The position numbers and the translations under genes are program-made. 37,415 bases of DNA, taken from the IMG/VR virus record IMGVR_UViG_3300044618_002500, positions 1 through 37,415 of that record. One strand, written 5' to 3'. Below, in pieces: positions 7,463 through 21,791 of this stretch. The DNA comes from a virus. Every line of letters starts with the position of its first letter. Position 1 is the first letter of the stretch. Below the pieces are notes generated by a model, which was not told the DNA's origin, searched no databases, and worked only from the letters and a program-made list of their open reading frames with translations.

Positions 7463-7790
7463 AAAATACGAGACCAATCACAATGCTTTTCTCTTTATAT
7501 GCAAAGCACAGGGTATAGAAGGCATTGTTCCAGAGTTTATGTTTGCAGCCGAACTAAAACGAAAGTGGAGATTTGACTTTGCCATACCAGAGGCAATGTT
7601 AGCAATAGAGATAGAGGGCGGTCTGTGGATTACAGGCCGTCACAATAGAGCATCTGGCTTTGTTAAGGACATGGAAAAGTACAACACCGCTGCTACTCTA
7701 GGTTGGCGTGTTTTGAAATTTACGCCACAGGAAATTCAGAAAGATTCCACATACCAAACAATCAAGAAATGTCTGGAGACAAAAGCATGA
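7452..7790 (+). CDS. Vsr/VRR-like PD-(D/E)XK endonuclease
   Basis: The 112-residue protein contains RKWRFDFAIPEAMLAIEIEGG (its core is Asp42, Glu53 and Glu55), then GRHNRASGFVKDMEKYNTA and GWRVLKFTPQEI. This order matches small Vsr-fold or DUF559-type nucleases common in phage replication modules. ATG 7452 lies inside the end of the previous nuclease gene, suggesting coupled translation. A role in resolving branched DNA or processing intermediates is inferred. Two consecutive nuclease genes of the same superfold are notable. Confidence 0.68.
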   Translation: MKTKKYETNHNAFLFICKAQGIEGIVPEFMFAAELKRKWRFDFAIPEAMLAIEIEGGLWITGRHNRASGFVKDMEKYNTAATLGWRVLKFTPQEIQKDSTYQTIKKCLETKA

Positions 7791-8347
7791 ATAAAAAATA
7801 TAAAACTATCTTAATAGACCCACCTTGGAAATATGGGAAATGGGGCGTAGGAAGTAAAAAAAGCGCTTTCAAATCAAAATACAATCAAGAGCCGAAATCA
7901 ATTGAGTACGAAACATTGACTACAGAGCAAATTAGAAATATAGACATAAAAAGTCTAGCATCTGAAAATTGCGAACTGTATCTGTGGACTACTCAAAAAT
8001 ACCTACCGTTTTCTTTTGACATAATAAAAAGCTGGGGCTTTAAGTATTGCCAAACTTTGGCATGGTGTAAAGCTCCAATGGGTAAGGGACAGGGGGGAAT
8101 TTACTGTCCGACAACAGAGTTCTTGATTCTTGCAAGAGTAGGTAAAGCGCCAAAAGTCAAGCGAGAAGATTCTACATGGTGGAGAGTCAAGAGAACAGGC
8201 CGCCATTCTCAAAAGCCAGTTTTCTTTCACGAGCTAATTGAAAAAGTTACTGAAGAGCCGCGACTCGAAATGTTTGCAAGAGCAAAAAGAGAGGGCTGGG
8301 ATGTCTGGGGTAATGAAGTTAACTCAGACATATATTTTGAAATATAA
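7787..8347 (+). CDS. MT-A70-family DNA adenine N6-methyltransferase
   Basis: The start is ATG 7787, overlapping the previous stop (ATGA) with GGAG at 7775-7778; an upstream in-frame start at 7703 is inside the nuclease gene. The 186-residue protein begins MNKKYKTILIDPPWKYG, with the DPPW catalytic motif at 11-14. It continues with LYLWTTQKYLPFSFDIIKSWGF (start of the SAM fold), CPTTEFLILARVGK and GRHSQKPVFFHELIE. This is the standard MT-A70/Ime4-like phage layout. It should methylate adenine N6 in DNA using S-adenosylmethionine, probably to protect phage DNA. The target sequence cannot be read from here. Confidence 0.88.
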   Translation: MNKKYKTILIDPPWKYGKWGVGSKKSAFKSKYNQEPKSIEYETLTTEQIRNIDIKSLASENCELYLWTTQKYLPFSFDIIKSWGFKYCQTLAWCKAPMGKGQGGIYCPTTEFLILARVGKAPKVKREDSTWWRVKRTGRHSQKPVFFHELIEKVTEEPRLEMFARAKREGWDVWGNEVNSDIYFEI

Positions 8348-13409: not shown

Positions 13410-13615
13410 TGAAATTAAAATTAAAGTATGAAGCAGTAAAACGAATTCCAATAAAATGGGATAACGAAGGAAACGAAATTGAATGGAATGAAATTCCTGT
13501 TTTGTTATGGAAATTTATAGACGAGAATGGCAATCTTTGGAATACCGAAACTGTTATTGAAGCGACAGAAGGTGAAGCAAAAGAAATCATTTTGCAAAGT
13601 TTAGAAAGTGAGTAA
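13409..13615 (+). CDS. Hypothetical acidic 68-residue protein
   Basis: The start is taken as ATG 13409, overlapping the fibre stop as TGATG; an in-frame ATG at 13397 would overlap more. The product is rich in Glu and Trp (IKWDNEGNEIEWNEIPVLLW, KFIDENGNLWNTETVIE). A small protein directly behind a fibre gene may be a fibre assembly factor, as for some phage chaperones; this is positional inference only. Confidence 0.5.
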   Translation: MKLKLKYEAVKRIPIKWDNEGNEIEWNEIPVLLWKFIDENGNLWNTETVIEATEGEAKEIILQSLESE

Positions 13616-14486
13616 ACAAAAGAGAAATATCCGTGTTTCAGTGAATGAAGACGAATATCGTTTTGTTCGCGAGGTTTTGCACAAAAGCAAAGGCGCTGGA
13701 CGAAAGGCGAAAATCAGTGAGGTGGATTCCTTTGTTTCTGAGTGGCTTCATTCTTTTCCAGACGGTCAAGAGCAAGTAAAAAATACAATTACCGTAGAGG
13801 GCAAAGTTGCCGTCTTGAGTGATATTCACTTAGGAGTCCATGACAAACAAGCAATTGTTTCTGTCTTAACTTATCTCAAAAAAGAAAAGCCAGACTCAAT
13901 TGTTTTGAACGGCGACATAATGGACTCAGCTGCTATTTCTCGGCACCCCAAAGGACAGAACACACCAAAATATCTATATGAGTTGGAGCTTTGCAAAAAC
14001 TTTCTAACCGCAATTAGAGCTGATTACCCTTACGCAAAAATATATTTCAAAGAGGGGAATCACGAAGACAGGTTGCATAGATATATTCAAGAAAAAGTTA
14101 ACGAGTTAGAAGGCGTTGTTTTGCTAAACGAGCTACTTGATTTGAAAGCAAAAGATATAACTCATGTAGAAAGCACTCAGTTTATGAGAGCAAACAAAGT
14201 ATTCATTATTCATGGTCATGAATTGAAAGTCTCTGGTGGAATAAACCCCGCTCGTTCTTTGTTGCTGAAATCTTTTGAAAATACAATCATGGGTCATGTT
14301 CACAGGACGAGCTTTTCCTCTGGCAAAAGCATAGACGGAAAGACAATCAGAACTTGGACAACCGGTTGCTTATGTAAGCTCTCACAATCTTATATGCCTC
14401 ACTCTGCTAGCAATCATGGTTTTGCTATCATTGAACAAGACGGCGCTGTTCGAAATCATTTCTTGATAAACGGAGTAATAGAGTGA
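13608..14486 (+). CDS. Calcineurin-like metallophosphoesterase
   Basis: GTG 13608 lies inside the end of the previous gene. The N-terminal 60 residues (NIRVSVNEDEYRFVREVLHK) look like a small helical DNA-binding-type module. The phosphoesterase motifs then appear in order: SDIHLG (Asp72, His74), NGDIMD (Asp103), GNHED (Asn151, His152), IHGHE (His202, His204) and GHVH (His230, His232). All metal ligands are present, so it should be an active two-metal hydrolase of phosphate esters. Substrate unknown; relatives include nucleotidases and nucleases. It sits between fibre and spanin-like genes. Confidence 0.85.
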   Translation: MSKQKRNIRVSVNEDEYRFVREVLHKSKGAGRKAKISEVDSFVSEWLHSFPDGQEQVKNTITVEGKVAVLSDIHLGVHDKQAIVSVLTYLKKEKPDSIVLNGDIMDSAAISRHPKGQNTPKYLYELELCKNFLTAIRADYPYAKIYFKEGNHEDRLHRYIQEKVNELEGVVLLNELLDLKAKDITHVESTQFMRANKVFIIHGHELKVSGGINPARSLLLKSFENTIMGHVHRTSFSSGKSIDGKTIRTWTTGCLCKLSQSYMPHSASNHGFAIIEQDGAVRNHFLINGVIE

Positions 14487-15059: not shown

Positions 15060-15659
15060 ATGAAAATTGCCGTAAACAAGCTGAAAGAGAACCCCAACAA
15101 CCCGCGCGTGATAAGAGATGCGAATTTCAAGAAACTCGTAAGCTCAATTAAGAGCTTTCCAGAGATGCTTTCTGTCCGAAAAATTGTGGTCAATAATGAT
15201 TACGAGGTTTTGGGTGGAAACATGAGGCTAAAAGCGCTGAAAGAGGCGGGCGTAAAAGAAGTCGAAATTGAAGTTGTTGACTGGCCTATTGAAAAGCAGA
15301 AAGAGTTTATCATTAAAGACAATGTTTCCTTTGGTGAGTGGAATTACGAGCTGCTAGCAAATGAGTGGGAATATCAAGACTTGACAGACTGGGGTTTAAC
15401 CGTACCCGGTCTTGAAAAGTTAGAGGGTGATACGGCGTTAGAAGACTTTTTTCTTGAAACAGAAAAGCCAGAGGGCGACGATATTTCCGTAAGCGTAAAG
15501 GACGACGGATATTCACGTTTTGAACTCATTATGTTTCATGATAACAAAAAGCGTTTAATGGAAACATTGAATAAGATTAAACAAAAGCATGACCTAGAAA
15601 AATTAGAGGACGCTCTTATGGAGCTTGTCTTTATTTATGAAAAGTATGACAGAGGCTAA
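15060..15659 (+). CDS. ParB-like protein (IbrB-type), first copy
   Basis: ATG 15060 follows TAGGAG (15047-15052). The 199-residue protein has a ParB/sulfiredoxin-fold N-terminal domain: LKENPNNPR at 8-16, then YEVLGGNMRLKALKEAG at 48-64, where GGNMR is the phosphate-binding turn that replaces GERR of classical ParB. A partner region follows (FIIKDNVSFGEWNYELLANEW). The C-terminal part is acidic and helical. It lacks the KorB-type helix-turn-helix of partition ParB. It heads a four-gene cassette with a cupin, a PP-loop ATPase and a second ParB-like gene. Confidence 0.8.
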   Translation: MKIAVNKLKENPNNPRVIRDANFKKLVSSIKSFPEMLSVRKIVVNNDYEVLGGNMRLKALKEAGVKEVEIEVVDWPIEKQKEFIIKDNVSFGEWNYELLANEWEYQDLTDWGLTVPGLEKLEGDTALEDFFLETEKPEGDDISVSVKDDGYSRFELIMFHDNKKRLMETLNKIKQKHDLEKLEDALMELVFIYEKYDRG

Positions 15660-15662
15660 AAA

Positions 15663-16466
15663 ATGAGACAAGAAACAAATTCATTCATAAGTTTTGGCAT
15701 TTCAGAGGCGGGTCTTGTTTTTGACGATAGCAGCCACGAAAAATATCCTCTTCGTTTTTACAACGTTATAGACGGTGAGGGTTTACCAACGCATGACAAA
15801 GTAGCTGATTATTCCTACTTTGTTTTTGTGTATCAAGGTGAGGCGGGGCTTACGCTCCCTACAGGATTACAAGCGCTGTTGCCAAAAGACACATATTTTT
15901 CAACGCATGGTTTTTACAAGCTAGCAGGCTCGTACAAGGCAATTGTTATTGAAGTCATATCAGACAGCGGATACTATGGACAGACAGGATATACGGCATA
16001 TACGAGTATCGGTGGAACAGTTGAAGAGAAAGGTCGCTTAAAATATATCGACGGTTGTACGGACAGCCTCTTGATATCTCCAGTCAAGAAAGGAGACCCA
16101 TGTCTGAATCACTTACACTTTCCTAGAGAGATTACACAAACGCCACACACTCACCCAACTCATAGATTTGGAATTGTTATCAGAGGCGACGGTGAATGTG
16201 TAACTCCGTTTGGAAATTTGCCTCTCGTAGAAGGCTGTGTGTTCGTGATAAAAGAGTACGACGGTGTTGGAATGCATGTTGGTCTTGACGGCTCTCTGTA
16301 CGAGGCTGGAACGCATAAATTTAATACATACGGAAACTCTATGGACGTTATAGCTTTCCACCCTGACTCAGACTTTGGTCCAGAGGACGAGTTTCATCCA
16401 ATGATAAACAGAACAATCGTTCACGGCGTTTCCGCTGCAAACATTGAATCTATCAGAACAAAGTAA
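15663..16466 (+). CDS. Cupin-domain protein
   Basis: The gene starts 3 bases after the ParB-like gene. The 267-residue protein has a C-terminal cupin: HTHPTHRFGIVIRGDGECV (about 163-181), a turn with GNLPLVEGCVFVI, and HKFNTYGNSMDVIAFHP (about 219-235). The His residues of HTHPTH and HKF are candidate metal ligands. The N-terminal half (YFVFVYQGEAGLTLPTG, YKAIVIEVISDSG) may be a second, ligand-free barrel. Cupins include many dioxygenases, isomerases and binding proteins, so the reaction is not predictable. The cassette context suggests it acts with the PP-loop ATPase. Confidence 0.75.
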   Translation: MRQETNSFISFGISEAGLVFDDSSHEKYPLRFYNVIDGEGLPTHDKVADYSYFVFVYQGEAGLTLPTGLQALLPKDTYFSTHGFYKLAGSYKAIVIEVISDSGYYGQTGYTAYTSIGGTVEEKGRLKYIDGCTDSLLISPVKKGDPCLNHLHFPREITQTPHTHPTHRFGIVIRGDGECVTPFGNLPLVEGCVFVIKEYDGVGMHVGLDGSLYEAGTHKFNTYGNSMDVIAFHPDSDFGPEDEFHPMINRTIVHGVSAANIESIRTK

Positions 16467-16469
16467 ATA

Positions 16470-17696
16470 ATGAGAGAAAGCAAAATGAGTGAAGCGAATA
16501 GAAAGCCAACGAAAGCAAAGCAAACAATGTCTAGGCCAAAGAGCTATAAAGAGACAGATGTTTGGAACGAAGCTCTGGACAGAATACGATATATCTACGA
16601 TAGTTTTGACAAGGTTGTTGTTTCTTTCTCTGGAGGGAAGGACTCGACAGCTGTCCTAAACGCTACAATAGCAGTTGCTCGCGAGAAAGGAAAGCTACCA
16701 GTTGAAGCGGTGTTCTTTGACGAAGAGGCTATTCACCCGCCGACAATTGAATATGTCGAAAGAGTAAGCAAGAATCCTGATGTAAAACTCAAGTGGTTTT
16801 GTCTAGAGGTCAAACATAGAAACGCTTGTTCGAATGAAGAGCCTTTCTGGTATACATGGGAAAAAGGAAAAGAGGATAAGTGGGTAAGACCGATGCCAGA
16901 GGGTGCAATTACAGAGCACCCGAGGTTCAAGAAAGGAATGAGTTTTCAAGACTTCGCTCCCTATATCTACAACAGAGCAGACGGTCGCGTCGCTATGCTT
17001 GTTGGAATAAGGACTGAAGAGAGCTTGCGTAGACTTCGAACAATTGTCTCAAAAAAAGAAGAGGCTTTTCTATCAAGTAACAGCGCAAACGGAAACAATC
17101 AATACAGGTGCTTTCCAATTTACGACTGGTTAAGCACTGATGTTTGGGCGGCTGTTCGAAAATTCGGTTGGGACTATAATAGGACATACGATATCTATGA
17201 TAAAACAGACATGTTCGGTAAATATCTAGCTCAAAGAGTTTGCCCGCCTTACGGTGAGGAACCGTTGCGTGGTCTCTATCTCTATGCTGAATGCTTTCCT
17301 GAAATGTGGCACAAAATGATAGACAGAGTTCAAGGTGCGGCTACGGCTTGGAGATATGGAAACACGGAACTCTATTCCAATACAAAAACAAAGCCAGAGG
17401 GAATGAAGTGGAGTGAATACTTGCACATTATTCTTGATTCATACGAGTTAGATGCAAGAGAGGCTGTAAAGCATACGATTTCTCACTACATATATCAGCA
17501 CAGGCAACATACAAAGCAGCCGATACCAGAAGAGGAGGCGCACCCGCTAACAGGTAAAAGTTGGAAAGGAATGTGCCGTGTCGCTATTCGTGGAGACTTC
17601 AAAGAAAGACAGAAAGATTATTTCTTTACAGAGGCTCTGAAACAACAAAAGAAACTAGGCATAAATTGGCAAAAGGCACAAGAACTTTATTCATGA
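16470..17696 (+). CDS. PAPS-reductase-like PP-loop ATPase (IbrA/DUF3440-like)
   Basis: The start is ATG 16470 or the in-frame ATG 16485, which has GAGAAAG just upstream. The 408-residue protein has the PP-loop SGGKDST at 54-60, an FFDEEAIHPPTIEYV region, and GRVAMLVGIRTEESLRRLRTI (about 170-190). Its C-terminal half (DVWAAVRKFGWDYNRTYD, then LRGLYLYAECFPEMWHKM) matches the IbrA-type extension of PAPS-reductase-like proteins. Such enzymes adenylate a substrate with ATP, often before sulphur transfer. In E. coli IbrA works with a ParB-like IbrB. Here it lies between a cupin and a second ParB-like gene. Confidence 0.85.
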   Translation: MRESKMSEANRKPTKAKQTMSRPKSYKETDVWNEALDRIRYIYDSFDKVVVSFSGGKDSTAVLNATIAVAREKGKLPVEAVFFDEEAIHPPTIEYVERVSKNPDVKLKWFCLEVKHRNACSNEEPFWYTWEKGKEDKWVRPMPEGAITEHPRFKKGMSFQDFAPYIYNRADGRVAMLVGIRTEESLRRLRTIVSKKEEAFLSSNSANGNNQYRCFPIYDWLSTDVWAAVRKFGWDYNRTYDIYDKTDMFGKYLAQRVCPPYGEEPLRGLYLYAECFPEMWHKMIDRVQGAATAWRYGNTELYSNTKTKPEGMKWSEYLHIILDSYELDAREAVKHTISHYIYQHRQHTKQPIPEEEAHPLTGKSWKGMCRVAIRGDFKERQKDYFFTEALKQQKKLGINWQKAQELYS

Positions 17697-17703
17697 GGAC
17701 AAA

Positions 17704-18222
17704 ATGAAAAAATATGAAAAGCAACCGCTAAACGAAATTGTTTGGCGCAAAAGAGAAGAGCTGAAACCCAATCACTACAACCCAAATAAAGTTGCGCCAC
17801 CTGAGTTGAAACTGTTGAAGATTTCAATTTTAGAGGACGGTTGGACGCAGCCTATTGTTGTGAATCCTGATTTGACAATTGTTGACGGCTTTCACCGCTG
17901 GACAGTTTCTGGTGATAAACAGATAGCAGCTCTTACAGAGGGTTACGTGCCCACTGTAATGATAAACCCGAAAGATGCTAGTCAACAACAAATGGCAACA
18001 ATAAGACACAACAGAGCACGCGGAACCCATGCAGTTCTTGCTATGGCTGATATTCTAGCAGATATGGTAAACTCTGGTCTCTCTGGAGACGAAATAATGA
18101 AGAGGCTTCAAATGGAAAAAGAAGAGGTCGTCCGTTTATTGTTCAAACATGGAATACCAAAAAGCAAGGTCTTCAATGATTACGAGTTCTCGAAGTCATG
18201 GGAACCAGGTGACAGAAAATAA
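17704..18222 (+). CDS. ParB-like protein (IbrB-type), second copy
   Basis: ATG 17704 follows GAGGAC (17696-17701). The 172-residue protein has LKPNHYNPNKVA (20-31) and the motif TIVDGFHRWTVSG (58-70), where DGFHR is the nucleotide-binding turn of IbrB/ParB-Srx proteins. The helical segment TIRHNRARGTHAVLAMADI follows, as in IbrB. It differs clearly from the first ParB-like gene, so this is not a recent duplication. It is likely the partner of the PP-loop ATPase, and ends 29 bases before the terminase small-subunit gene. Confidence 0.82.
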   Translation: MKKYEKQPLNEIVWRKREELKPNHYNPNKVAPPELKLLKISILEDGWTQPIVVNPDLTIVDGFHRWTVSGDKQIAALTEGYVPTVMINPKDASQQQMATIRHNRARGTHAVLAMADILADMVNSGLSGDEIMKRLQMEKEEVVRLLFKHGIPKSKVFNDYEFSKSWEPGDRK

Positions 18223-18251: not shown

Positions 18252-18581
18252 ATGCCAAACCCAGAAAATGTAATAGGCAAAGGTCGTCGCTGGAAAAAGG
18301 GTGAGAGCGGAAACCCGAAAGGCAGACCAAAAAAGATACCAGACTTGCACAAAGCTCTGGCGCTTGTTTTGGGTGAGGAAGGAAAGAAAGATTTGAACGC
18401 TCTGGAAATGATTCTTTTGTCTACTCGACAAGAGGCATTGAAAGGAAACATAAGAGCGGCTGAAATGCTTTTGAGGTACGCATTTCCAAACGGTTTGACT
18501 CAGACTACTGATTCCGATATGGAAGTTGTTTGGGGTAAGATAGGAAACGAAAATAATGAAGATACGACTGGAGTGTCATGA
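18252..18581 (+). CDS. Terminase small subunit-like protein (DUF5681)
   Basis: The 109-residue protein opens with a WKKGESGNPKGRPKK motif typical of the DUF5681 domain found next to phage terminases. A helical domain follows (ALALVLGEEGKKDLNALEMIL, GNIRAAEMLLRYAFP). The order directly before the large subunit supports a small-subunit role, recognising packaging sites and regulating the motor. ATG 18252 has AAAGCAGT upstream but no strong ribosome site. Its end overlaps the large-subunit gene by 26 bases. Confidence 0.7.
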   Translation: MPNPENVIGKGRRWKKGESGNPKGRPKKIPDLHKALALVLGEEGKKDLNALEMILLSTRQEALKGNIRAAEMLLRYAFPNGLTQTTDSDMEVVWGKIGNENNEDTTGVS

Positions 18582-19710
18582 CAAACAGCTTGAGATTATT
18601 CGCAATAGGACTAGGTTTAATGTTGTTCGGTGCGGCCGCCGTTTTGGCAAGTCTTTTCTTGCTTTCTCTCTTGCTCTTGAAAAGATGTTGGGAAAGCGTG
18701 GCTCGTTTGTTCTATACACAGCCCCGACATACTCAGACCTTAAAAAAAGATACAGAGACGCAAAGAAACTCTTCATTCCACTTGGTGCAACTTGCAGCGA
18801 AGGACAGATTAAATTGAACGGTTCGTATCTTGAGTTTACAGGCGTTTGGCGCTCTGAGTCAATAAGAGGGAATGCTTACGATAGAGCTATCTGTGACGAG
18901 TGGGCTTACGCCGCAAATGGAGAGGAAGCGTGGACAGACGTTATCATGCCGACTCTTGCTGATTACAAAGGAGACGCTTACTTTTTCAGTACGCCAGCTG
19001 GACGAAATCACTTTTACGAACTTGACCAAATGTCTGAAATCTATTCAAACTGGAAGTCATTTCATTACACTAGTTACGATAACCCTCTTATTGATACAGA
19101 AGAGATTGATTTAATGAAACAGCAGTTGCCCTCACTTGCTTTTGCACAGGAGGTCATGGCTGAATACGTTGACAGAGGCGCTTCAAAAATCAAGAGAGAG
19201 TGGCTGAAAATTGACGACACGAAAGTCTGCAAAGATTTCTATGTTGGCGTTGACCTTGCGATATCTCAAAAAGAAACAGCCGACTATACGGCCATAGTTG
19301 TCGTTGGTTTAACAGAAAGCGAAGAGGTTGTTGTAATAGATGCCATAAGAGGACGCTGGACTTTTGTTGAAATTGGAGAGAGAATACAAGAGATACATGA
19401 TAAATGGCAACCAAGAGTTATTGCCGTTGAATCTGTCCAAGCACAAGCGTGGCTTGTTCAAGAGCTGAAACGAAATACTAGAATGAATGTAGTCGGCGTA
19501 AAAGCCGATAGAGATAAGGTGCTACGCTTTCAGCCTGTAGAGGCACGATACGAGCACGGCTTGATATATCACAGTTCTTTTTTGCCTAGAGAGTTTACGG
19601 AAGAGCTGCTATACTTTACAGGAACTTCGCAAGACAAACACGACGACTTCATTGACGCTTTGGCGTACGCTTTTCATGCAATCAGAAAAACACCGAGTAT
19701 TTATCTATGA
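18556..19710 (+). CDS. terL: Terminase large subunit
   Basis: The 384-residue protein has the full motor-nuclease set. Walker A is GRRFGKS at 27-33, Walker B AICDE at 111-115, and a coupling motif FFSTPAGR at 143-150. The RNase H-like nuclease has Asp233 (GVDLAIS), Glu292 (AVES) and Asp363-Asp367 (DDFIDAL). It translocates DNA into the prohead and cuts it. The length is short but normal for this group. The end overlaps the portal start as ATGA. Confidence 0.95.
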   Translation: MKIRLECHDKQLEIIRNRTRFNVVRCGRRFGKSFLAFSLALEKMLGKRGSFVLYTAPTYSDLKKRYRDAKKLFIPLGATCSEGQIKLNGSYLEFTGVWRSESIRGNAYDRAICDEWAYAANGEEAWTDVIMPTLADYKGDAYFFSTPAGRNHFYELDQMSEIYSNWKSFHYTSYDNPLIDTEEIDLMKQQLPSLAFAQEVMAEYVDRGASKIKREWLKIDDTKVCKDFYVGVDLAISQKETADYTAIVVVGLTESEEVVVIDAIRGRWTFVEIGERIQEIHDKWQPRVIAVESVQAQAWLVQELKRNTRMNVVGVKADRDKVLRFQPVEARYEHGLIYHSSFLPREFTEELLYFTGTSQDKHDDFIDALAYAFHAIRKTPSIYL

Positions 19711-21791
19711 GTATCATTGAGTCCATAAGAGAGAGAGTCGCAAACGCTATACAGCCAAAGCGTTTACAGAATCCAAACAGAAGAGGGAAAGCAGACCGAA
19801 ACATTGGAGCTGTTCAAAGTGGAAACGCTTTGGAGGCTTCAATTAGAGGCACTGTTTTCGCTTGTCTCCAACACAGAGCAAACGCCCTCTCAAATATGAG
19901 ATTTGAGGTCTTTCGTGAGGACGCTTACGACAAAGCGGAACTACCGAACTATCACTGGGCTGTCGAGCTTTTGAGAAACCCAAACCCATACTTTACACGC
20001 TCTCAAGTTTTTACTTATATTGAGAACTGGCTTTCAATAAACGGTAATGCTTTTGTCTGGACTCCAACAAACGGCTACCGCGTTCCTCTTCAAATGTGGG
20101 TCTTGAACCCGACTCGCATGAGGGTTATCAAGGGCACGGACAATTTCATTGAAGGATATGTCTACCAATCAGCACAAGAGGGCAACATTGCCATACCTGA
20201 AAAAGAGGTAGTTCACCTAGCAAGAATCCACCCCGCTGCAAGACCAGAAGAGATAGTCGGAATGAATATCTTTGGTGTGGGTTTAGTAGAGGCCGCTCTT
20301 GAGTATGCGAATATAGACAGAGAGGTGTCGAAATATCTTGCACGCCTGTTCAAGAACAATGCCATTCCACCGCTCGTCGCAAAATATCCAGAGCGTTTTG
20401 ACTACGACGAGTGGGAAAGATTAAAGTCCCGCTGGAACGAAGAGTTGCCAGACTACAAACTCAGAGCTTTGCTTTCGAGTGGACTCTCATTGGAGCTACC
20501 GCCAAAGGGTGAACTGACAATTGGATATGATTCAGTAAGCTCCGATACTCGTTCTCAAATTGCACAAGTGTTCGGAGTCCCACCCGGTATGTTGACAGGC
20601 GAGTATCAGAACAGAGCAACAGCCGAAGTACAGTGGGGAATTTTCAGACAGAACACAATGGACCCCGAAGCTCACTACATTGCAGAGGAACTGACAAGGC
20701 ATTTCAGACGGTGGGACGAAGCGCTGCTTGTTGAAAGCGAAAGGTTCCAATACGATGACCCTCTTGTAGATATGCAGAGAGAGGAGTTCGAACTTCGTTG
20801 GGGTATCAAGACAATCAATGAAGCTAGAAAAGAACGCGGTTATGAAGAGATTGTTGGAGGTGACGCAGCTCTCATTGGAAATGGTTTTGTGCCTCTTTCG
20901 ACAACTTCGCAAATTACTCTAGGTGATTTGTTCGGAGGCAATAGAAAGCCAGAGGTTTCAAAGCCAACAGCACGCTCTCTTATGGAAAGAAACTCTGGAT
21001 ATGGAAATGAAGAGGGTTTATCTTTGGAGAATGCGTCTATTTCGCGCACAAATGGCGTAGGAGACGCGGAACTGGAATATACGAAAGCAAATATGCGTGA
21101 CTACTTTTGGCGCAAATATGACGGCCTTACAAGCAAAAATTCAAACTTGATTAAAAAGACAGTAGACACAGCTTTCCGTGAGCTTCAAAATGAAATCCTA
21201 GAGAGAGTCGGGAACGGCGCAACAGAGCTTAATGATGTCTTGATAAAGAACGAGGATATTGCAAAATACCAAGCGGCTGTTCAAGAATCATGCGAGCGTG
21301 TCAAGAGAGAGCTTGCAAAGGAACTCGGAGTCGAACCGAATGAAGTTCCGCCCGCTGTCAACAATTACATTGCTACTGTAACTCAGGAAAGCGCTTCAAA
21401 GATAAGCGAGTCTATTGGAGCTATAAAAAGCGAAGTAGAGGTGGAGCTTGCAAAGCTAGCAGGTGAGGACTCTACTGTTATCAGAAAGGCTCTAACCGCG
21501 AAATTCGATACGTTATTGCCAGCAAGAGCAAAGACGATAGCGAACACAACAGCAGCAAATGCAACAAGCGCTGTTCAATATACGATGTATAGGGAAAACG
21601 GTTTCAAGTCTGTTTGGCTTACTCAAAGAGACGGAGCTGTCCGTCCCGCTCACTTAGCTGTTGACGGTCAATATCCAAATGAGTCTGGATACTTTCTAGT
21701 CGGTGGTGAGCAAACGACAAGGCCGTTAGGCGGTGGGCTTTCAGCAAGAAACGCAGTAAACTGTAGATGCCAATTGTTTCCAGAGAGGTAA
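19707..21791 (+). CDS. Portal protein fused to a MuF-like head morphogenesis domain
   Basis: The 694-residue protein has an HK97-type portal domain over about residues 30-400, with TVFACLQHRANALSNMRFEV, NPNPYFTRSQVFTYIENW and QIAQVFGVPPGMLTGEYQNRATAE. A helical region follows, then a C-terminal MuF domain (about 605-694) with TTAANATSAVQYTMYRENG, VRPAHLAVDGQY, GGEQTTRPLGGG and NCRCQLFPE. Portal rings form the DNA gateway; MuF domains act in head assembly and are often separate genes. The fusion is one continuous frame with no sign of a lost stop. Confidence 0.9.
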   Translation: MSIIESIRERVANAIQPKRLQNPNRRGKADRNIGAVQSGNALEASIRGTVFACLQHRANALSNMRFEVFREDAYDKAELPNYHWAVELLRNPNPYFTRSQVFTYIENWLSINGNAFVWTPTNGYRVPLQMWVLNPTRMRVIKGTDNFIEGYVYQSAQEGNIAIPEKEVVHLARIHPAARPEEIVGMNIFGVGLVEAALEYANIDREVSKYLARLFKNNAIPPLVAKYPERFDYDEWERLKSRWNEELPDYKLRALLSSGLSLELPPKGELTIGYDSVSSDTRSQIAQVFGVPPGMLTGEYQNRATAEVQWGIFRQNTMDPEAHYIAEELTRHFRRWDEALLVESERFQYDDPLVDMQREEFELRWGIKTINEARKERGYEEIVGGDAALIGNGFVPLSTTSQITLGDLFGGNRKPEVSKPTARSLMERNSGYGNEEGLSLENASISRTNGVGDAELEYTKANMRDYFWRKYDGLTSKNSNLIKKTVDTAFRELQNEILERVGNGATELNDVLIKNEDIAKYQAAVQESCERVKRELAKELGVEPNEVPPAVNNYIATVTQESASKISESIGAIKSEVEVELAKLAGEDSTVIRKALTAKFDTLLPARAKTIANTTAANATSAVQYTMYRENGFKSVWLTQRDGAVRPAHLAVDGQYPNESGYFLVGGEQTTRPLGGGLSARNAVNCRCQLFPER

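Follow-up and report, generated by a model that had tools for sequence, protein, structure and literature searches.

A ParB–cupin–PP-loop ATPase–ParB cassette beside the terminase genes of uncultured tailed phages enlarges the IbrA/IbrB pair

The IbrA/IbrB pair, in which a DUF3440 PP-loop ATPase adjoins a ParB protein with a DGFHR motif (the E. coli K-12 counterpart is annotated YbdN/YbdM), is found in hundreds of named phages. Its chemistry is not known, and annotation pipelines can label the PP-loop half as a sulfur-metabolism gene. ParB-superfamily proteins are also partners in DNA modification systems, as exemplified by DndB and DpdB (PMC10853773, PMC12839542), and in CmoA/CmoX/CmoY cytosine hypermodification an asparagine-synthetase-like ligase with ParBc neighbours acts on phage DNA (PMC12783734). 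Here, we describe a four-gene cassette in the 37.4-kb virus record IMGVR_UViG_3300044618_002500, analyzed at its full length (the window). What is new in this cassette is the addition of a second ParB-fold protein (ParB1) and a cupin to IbrA/IbrB. We consider it likely that the four genes constitute one unit with AMP-forming PP-loop chemistry. The cassette and its two downstream neighbours are arranged as follows:

15060..15659, plus strand: ParB1, a ParB/sulfiredoxin-fold protein of 199 amino acids (aa) with a GGNMR motif and a C-terminal extension
15663..16466, plus strand: cupin, a bicupin of 267 aa with an HTHPTH motif
16470..17696, plus strand: PP-loop ATPase of the IbrA type, 408 aa, with an SGGKDST motif; PP-loop domain at residues ~26–276 plus a DUF3440-type C-terminal part
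17704..18222, plus strand: ParB2, an IbrB-type ParB-fold protein of 172 aa with a DGFHR motif
18252..18581, plus strand: small protein in the small-terminase (TerS) position, Pfam DUF5681 (55.3 bits); a neighbour in the same gene run
18556..19710, plus strand: large terminase subunit (TerL), Terminase_6N and Terminase_6C; overlaps the DUF5681 gene

The four cassette open reading frames (ORFs), which the original prediction had described as consecutive genes with these four motifs, are indeed present there on one strand, separated by 3, 3 and 7 bp, and the DUF5681 gene starts 29 bp downstream of ParB2. IMG/VR was scanned with the cupin and PP-loop proteins, and 80 of the 191 stretches that encode a cupin relative were kept. 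These metagenomic records are possibly incomplete, and the relatives share ancestry, so that the counts given here are not independent events. In 76 distinct cupin-bearing viral loci, we looked at the flanks of the cupin wherever a partner could be tested. Upstream, ParB1 occurs at no more than 1.5 kb in all 57 such loci; downstream, 67 of 68 have a PP-loop gene at no more than 2 kb, and 41 of 42 have ParB2 at no more than 4.5 kb. The order ParB1-cupin-PP-loop-ParB2-TerS-TerL is almost constant, with the terminase next after the cassette in most loci. Each of the four genes is under strong purifying selection (median dN/dS 0.06–0.08). This neighbourhood is more than chance, as its order and composition are kept, under purifying selection, in dozens of divergent viral loci; the comparison demonstrates a conserved unit with a conserved order. 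It also bears out the earlier reading of the genes as a single IbrA/IbrB-like unit, extended by a cupin and another ParB and set against the terminase: cupin-bearing phages do not carry random subsets in unrelated places, while the IbrA/IbrB half alone does travel separately.

The cassette holds its position while the packaging gene varies, since the median identity in 51 complete loci is 46–61% for the cassette proteins versus 18% for TerL. Of the window's TerL and 45 ORFs from downstream positions (46 proteins in all), 35 match Terminase_6N, 30 match Terminase_3 and one is of the GpA type. A link between the cassette and packaging has adjacency as its sole basis, and the adjoining TerL differs freely between phages. 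Mirror-tree correlations are highest for PP-loop/ParB2 (rho 0.61) and ParB1/PP-loop (0.50), both above permutations. The cupin correlates with the other cassette genes at a rho of 0.28–0.30 (permutation maxima 0.22–0.36), which is no better than its correlation with TerL (0.38). As this agreement is weak, at about 0.3, the membership of the cupin is based on gene order and not on tree agreement.

Judged from their sequences, the PP-loop ATPase and ParB2 are the known IbrA/IbrB pair. The PP-loop protein matches PAPS_reduct (57.6 bits), DUF3440 (46.8 bits, cut-off 25) and PHROG 2302 (E-value 8.4e-89). Its AlphaFold2 model (pLDDT 84) has a predicted fold similar to those of PAPS reductase, FAD synthase and CysD, with Z-scores of 14–16, and its profile gives only weak CysD, LarE and APS-reductase matches among PDB sequences. 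ParB2 matches the ParB-like PHROG 2159 (E-value 6.6e-62), with ParB_N under the Pfam cut-off; each residue of its DGFHR motif (residues 61–65) is conserved in at least 95% of relatives, and the relatives in phage records carry labels such as IbrB or ‘co-activator of prophage gene expression’. The PP-loop protein has a match in 215 and ParB2 in 239 of 50,697 named phage records, and the IbrA and IbrB proteins annotated in phages are about 30–47% identical to those of the window. As controls, we took 46 IbrA loci that could be read on both sides; every one of them has ParB2 within 2.5 kb. Unlike the cassette, none of these loci has the cupin or ParB1, and TerL is found in three. Phage PJN03 has a ParB-ParB-PP-loop arrangement adjoining the terminase, without a cupin; a search with its PP-loop protein found one locus.

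The residues His89, Cys111, Cys258 and Cys275 of the PP-loop protein are all retained in 62 of 74 proteins of the cassette clade and in none of the five IbrA proteins from named phages that were compared. They are all altered in the six PP-loop proteins of the amidotransferase type described below. We do not claim that they form a cluster site swapped for the amidotransferase, as the proteins of loci L177, L203 and L030 are similarly altered without a detected amidotransferase; these and the six may be one clade.

ParB1 belongs to Pfam ParB_N (29.4 bits, 8.3e-7; cut-off 26.3). Its best PHROG is 498, annotated as a DNA methyltransferase (7e-25), and the match falls within the ParB-like N-terminal part of that family. 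The cupin has no match among the named phage records, no Pfam match at E≤0.01, no match in the PDB by sequence or profile, and nothing significant among PHROGs. Of 36 cupin relatives, 25 match Cupin_2 and 24 weakly match AraC_binding. The AlphaFold2 model is a bicupin of high confidence (pLDDT 92.3, pTM 0.88) without a fused DNA-binding domain. All viral sequences (131, a redundant set with repeats from the same contigs) share His162, His164, His218, Arg168, His233, His245, Cys132 and Cys147, and so do nearly all of the 67 bacterial sequences. His162, His164 and His218, kept in 66–67 of the 67 bacterial sequences, probably form a 3-His metal site, by analogy with the general cupin motif of HxH plus a distal His. 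The cassette had been put forward as an undescribed system, and we found no paper that brings these parts together; subscription-only papers were largely outside our coverage.

Several viral cassettes contain additional genes. A second PP-loop ATPase lies within the cassette in 20 of 82 loci. In nine of these 20, a stand-alone class-II glutamine amidotransferase (GATase_6, 29.4 bits; cut-off 27) always directly follows the second PP-loop gene, between both PP-loop genes. SDR genes stand beside the cupin in loci L035, L036 and L146. These additions strengthen the earlier suggestion of a multi-step pathway. Between the PP-loop gene and ParB2, 15 of 82 loci have a conserved gene of ~165 aa (g165; AKSY..TFPHxYTTR..YEYWEMGRP; for example, L002:9970-10467), which matches no Pfam family over cut-off, and was not found among the 46 control IbrA loci, whose longer ParB2 proteins do not have it as their C-terminal domain either. 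A PD-(D/E)XK or Cas4-like protein of ~190 aa, under Pfam cut-offs, occupies the same interval in 13 of 82 loci (for example, L018:3455-4021).

On bacterial chromosomes, the cassette was seen only in loci L085, L086, L107 and L146, of which L085 (Chitinophagaceae) and L146 (Endozoicomonas) are prophage candidates. Of the other 66 chromosomal cupin loci, 18 have an AsnB-like gene and ten a C6 PP-loop (SGGIDST) gene within 2.5 kb, together 28 of 66. The AsnB-like group includes many related Competibacteraceae, as well as Planctomycetes, Acidobacteriota, Bacteroidetes, Polyangiaceae and Frankia; where the N-terminus of the AsnB-like protein could be read, it has no Met-Cys-Gly, which makes the use of glutamine unlikely. 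Taken with the second PP-loop, amidotransferase and SDR genes of the variant cassettes, these AsnB-like and PP-loop neighbours suggest AMP-forming PP-loop enzymes as the working partners of the cupin. The cassette also defines an uncharacterized family of cupins that spans several bacterial phyla and repeatedly stands beside such enzymes.

We propose, tentatively, that the cassette is a self-contained covalent-modification pathway of uncultured tailed phages and that its target is phage DNA. The PP-loop ATPase would activate a carbonyl or carboxyl oxygen of the target as an AMP adduct, with ParB2 as its constant partner engaging DNA and ParB1 as a second DNA-engaging factor. The 3-His bicupin could then carry out a metal-dependent tailoring of the same product. 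In the variant cassettes, the second PP-loop protein and the class-II amidotransferase may supply glutamine-derived ammonia to the pathway. To judge by gene position, the DNA would be modified as the packaging genes are expressed, which would protect it against nucleases. DNA is favoured as the target because of the two fixed ParB-fold members, the precedents of DndB, DpdB and the ParBc proteins of CmoX/CmoY, and the packing with packaging genes; a further point in its favour is that ParB1 resembles phage DNA methyltransferases in their ParB part. Several observations weigh against this proposal. Neither a DNA C5-methyltransferase (PF00145, CmoX-like) nor a thymidylate synthase homologue was found in any of 21 cassette records, which are possibly fragments; the chromosomal contexts of the cupin resemble small-molecule or surface-sugar biosynthesis and not DNA modification; and one locus, L031, has ParB1 and the cupin without a PP-loop gene. 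It is the missing C5-methyltransferase and thymidylate synthase, together with those chromosomal contexts, that keep our preference for DNA tentative. A more specific version, in which the IbrA-type ATPase is loaded onto DNA by the two ParB proteins and activates an unmodified base, the metal cupin completes a new group, and the lineages differ in nucleophile, one using glutamine ammonia through the stand-alone amidotransferase, is a doubtful though genuine possibility; if true, such a hypermodification would also explain what the orphan IbrA/IbrB pair does chemically.

The same enzymology could instead be directed at tRNA, a virion protein, a free nucleotide or a small molecule, with the ParB proteins only positioning the complex or acting as nucleoside triphosphate-dependent switches. 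The missing DNA handle enzymes speak for this, as do the chromosomal relatives beside AsnB-like and C6 PP-loop enzymes and, by eye, acyl carrier proteins, AMP ligases, oxidoreductases and nonulosonate genes, which are typical of small-molecule and glycan contexts. However, two fixed ParB-fold members in phages would be unusual for a small-molecule pathway, and ParB2 stays with the PP-loop gene in all 46 control loci even without the cupin; we regard a non-DNA target as somewhat unlikely. The chemistry might also be aimed at a host factor or at competing DNA, and not at the DNA of the phage itself, in counter-defence or superinfection exclusion, which seems improbable. The variable accessory genes (PD-(D/E)XK-like and g165) and the weak similarity of the PP-loop domain to DndC and BrxP would fit such a role, but the cassette keeps a constant position in a packed pre-terminase gene run and not in a variable accessory region, and no PADLOC family fits a member more closely than by a generic likeness to PP-loop or ParB proteins.

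The co-activator label of the IbrB relatives, and the AraC_binding matches of the cupin relatives, might point to a regulatory module, in which the IbrA/IbrB pair would co-activate the expression of prophage genes, as its E. coli name implies, and the cupin would be an AraC-type ligand sensor. Yet the PP-loop and cupin site residues are invariant and enzyme-like in viral and bacterial sequences, the cupin model is entirely bicupin, and a second PP-loop gene and an amidotransferase are ill-suited to a sensor, which makes this reading distinctly improbable. Finally, annotation pipelines would call the PP-loop protein a phage CysH, a sulfur auxiliary gene that reduces 3′-phosphoadenosine 5′-phosphosulfate (PAPS), and its PAPS_reduct domain and fold agree with that. 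In Chlorobium-associated viral contigs, a PAPS-reductase gene, which may or may not belong to the cassette family, was taken as sulfur metabolism (PMC8226683). The catalytic ECGxH motif of CysH is missing from all 74 PP-loop relatives, the window protein included, and curated CysH models give the latter 14.1 bits against a cut-off of 165.1; we conclude that the protein does not reduce sulfate, and the suggested interference with host sulfur by this route is not supported. As a CysH would also leave the coupling to ParB and cupin unexplained, this explanation is extremely improbable.

The remainder of the window is that of an ordinary tailed phage, with a Sak4-like annealing protein, a primase/helicase, a DNA methyltransferase (7703–8347, PHROG 359, distant from the cassette), an endolysin, a portal protein and a tail protein. 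A calcineurin-like metallophosphoesterase (13608–14486) lies immediately 5′ of the cassette and is not a conserved neighbour in the loci compared; the portal protein (19707–21791) carries a fused head morphogenesis domain like that of Mu gpF. Promoter and terminator scans gave signal near or little above shuffled expectation, and scans for RNA families and tRNAs found none. Elsewhere, the TerL of L009 (3052–5181) is unusually long (710 aa), and one member of the TerL alignment, probably this copy, matches intein/Hint domains. A protein of ~335 aa upstream of the cassette in L002, L014, L016, L019, L022, L026, L027 and L159 is glycosyltransferase-like by eye; the L016 copy has no Pfam match.

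Among the chromosomal loci, the cupins of L114, L115, L154 and Competibacteraceae lie close to an AsnB-like protein lacking Met-Cys-Gly and to a zinc-ribbon protein whose match is Toprim-like (in L115, TOP6A-Spo11_Toprim at 31 bits), which may be a separate bacterial system. In L099–L109, L117, L135 and L147, an SGGIDST PP-loop protein of about 360 aa is encoded immediately upstream of the cupin; the hosts are Lewinella relatives, Planctomycetes and a Steroidobacteraceae metagenome-assembled genome, and the L108 copy has no Pfam match. A small ORF with a GGGKGGGKGGG tail separates the two genes in L117 (7603–7911). Small ORFs beside bacterial cupins were considered as precursors of ribosomally synthesized and post-translationally modified peptides and dropped, as they are Gly/Lys-rich in L117 only and encode no consistent peptide.

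With its dedicated cupin, optional glutamine amidotransferase and second PP-loop protein, the cassette offers chemical clues for IbrA/IbrB and a defined, directly testable set of four genes. The closest folds to the cupin are bicupins of the ureidoglycine aminohydrolase/BacB group (PDB codes 4e2q, 1sfn and 3h7y; Z-scores of 17–19 over 192–207 residues), which differ in having at most 14% identity and unrelated gene partners. The likeness to ureidoglycine aminohydrolase is of fold alone, with other bicupins within 1–2 Z units; these matches speak to the fold of the cupin and not to its reaction. Dnd phosphorothioation (DndB/DndC) is likewise built on a PP-loop protein from the PAPS-reductase group and a partner from the ParB superfamily, although the PP-loop protein of the window scores 30 bits on the DndC model (cut-off 290.4) and the cassette has no DndD/DndE-like gene. 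Compared to CmoA/CmoX/CmoY, the cassette has a PP-loop protein of the PAPS-reductase/DUF3440 type and an extra cupin, and lacks the C5-methyltransferase in the records noted above; both systems place an AMP-forming ligase, a probable one in the cassette, near ParBc proteins in phages, and some Cmo ligases carry a glutaminase domain (PMC12783734).

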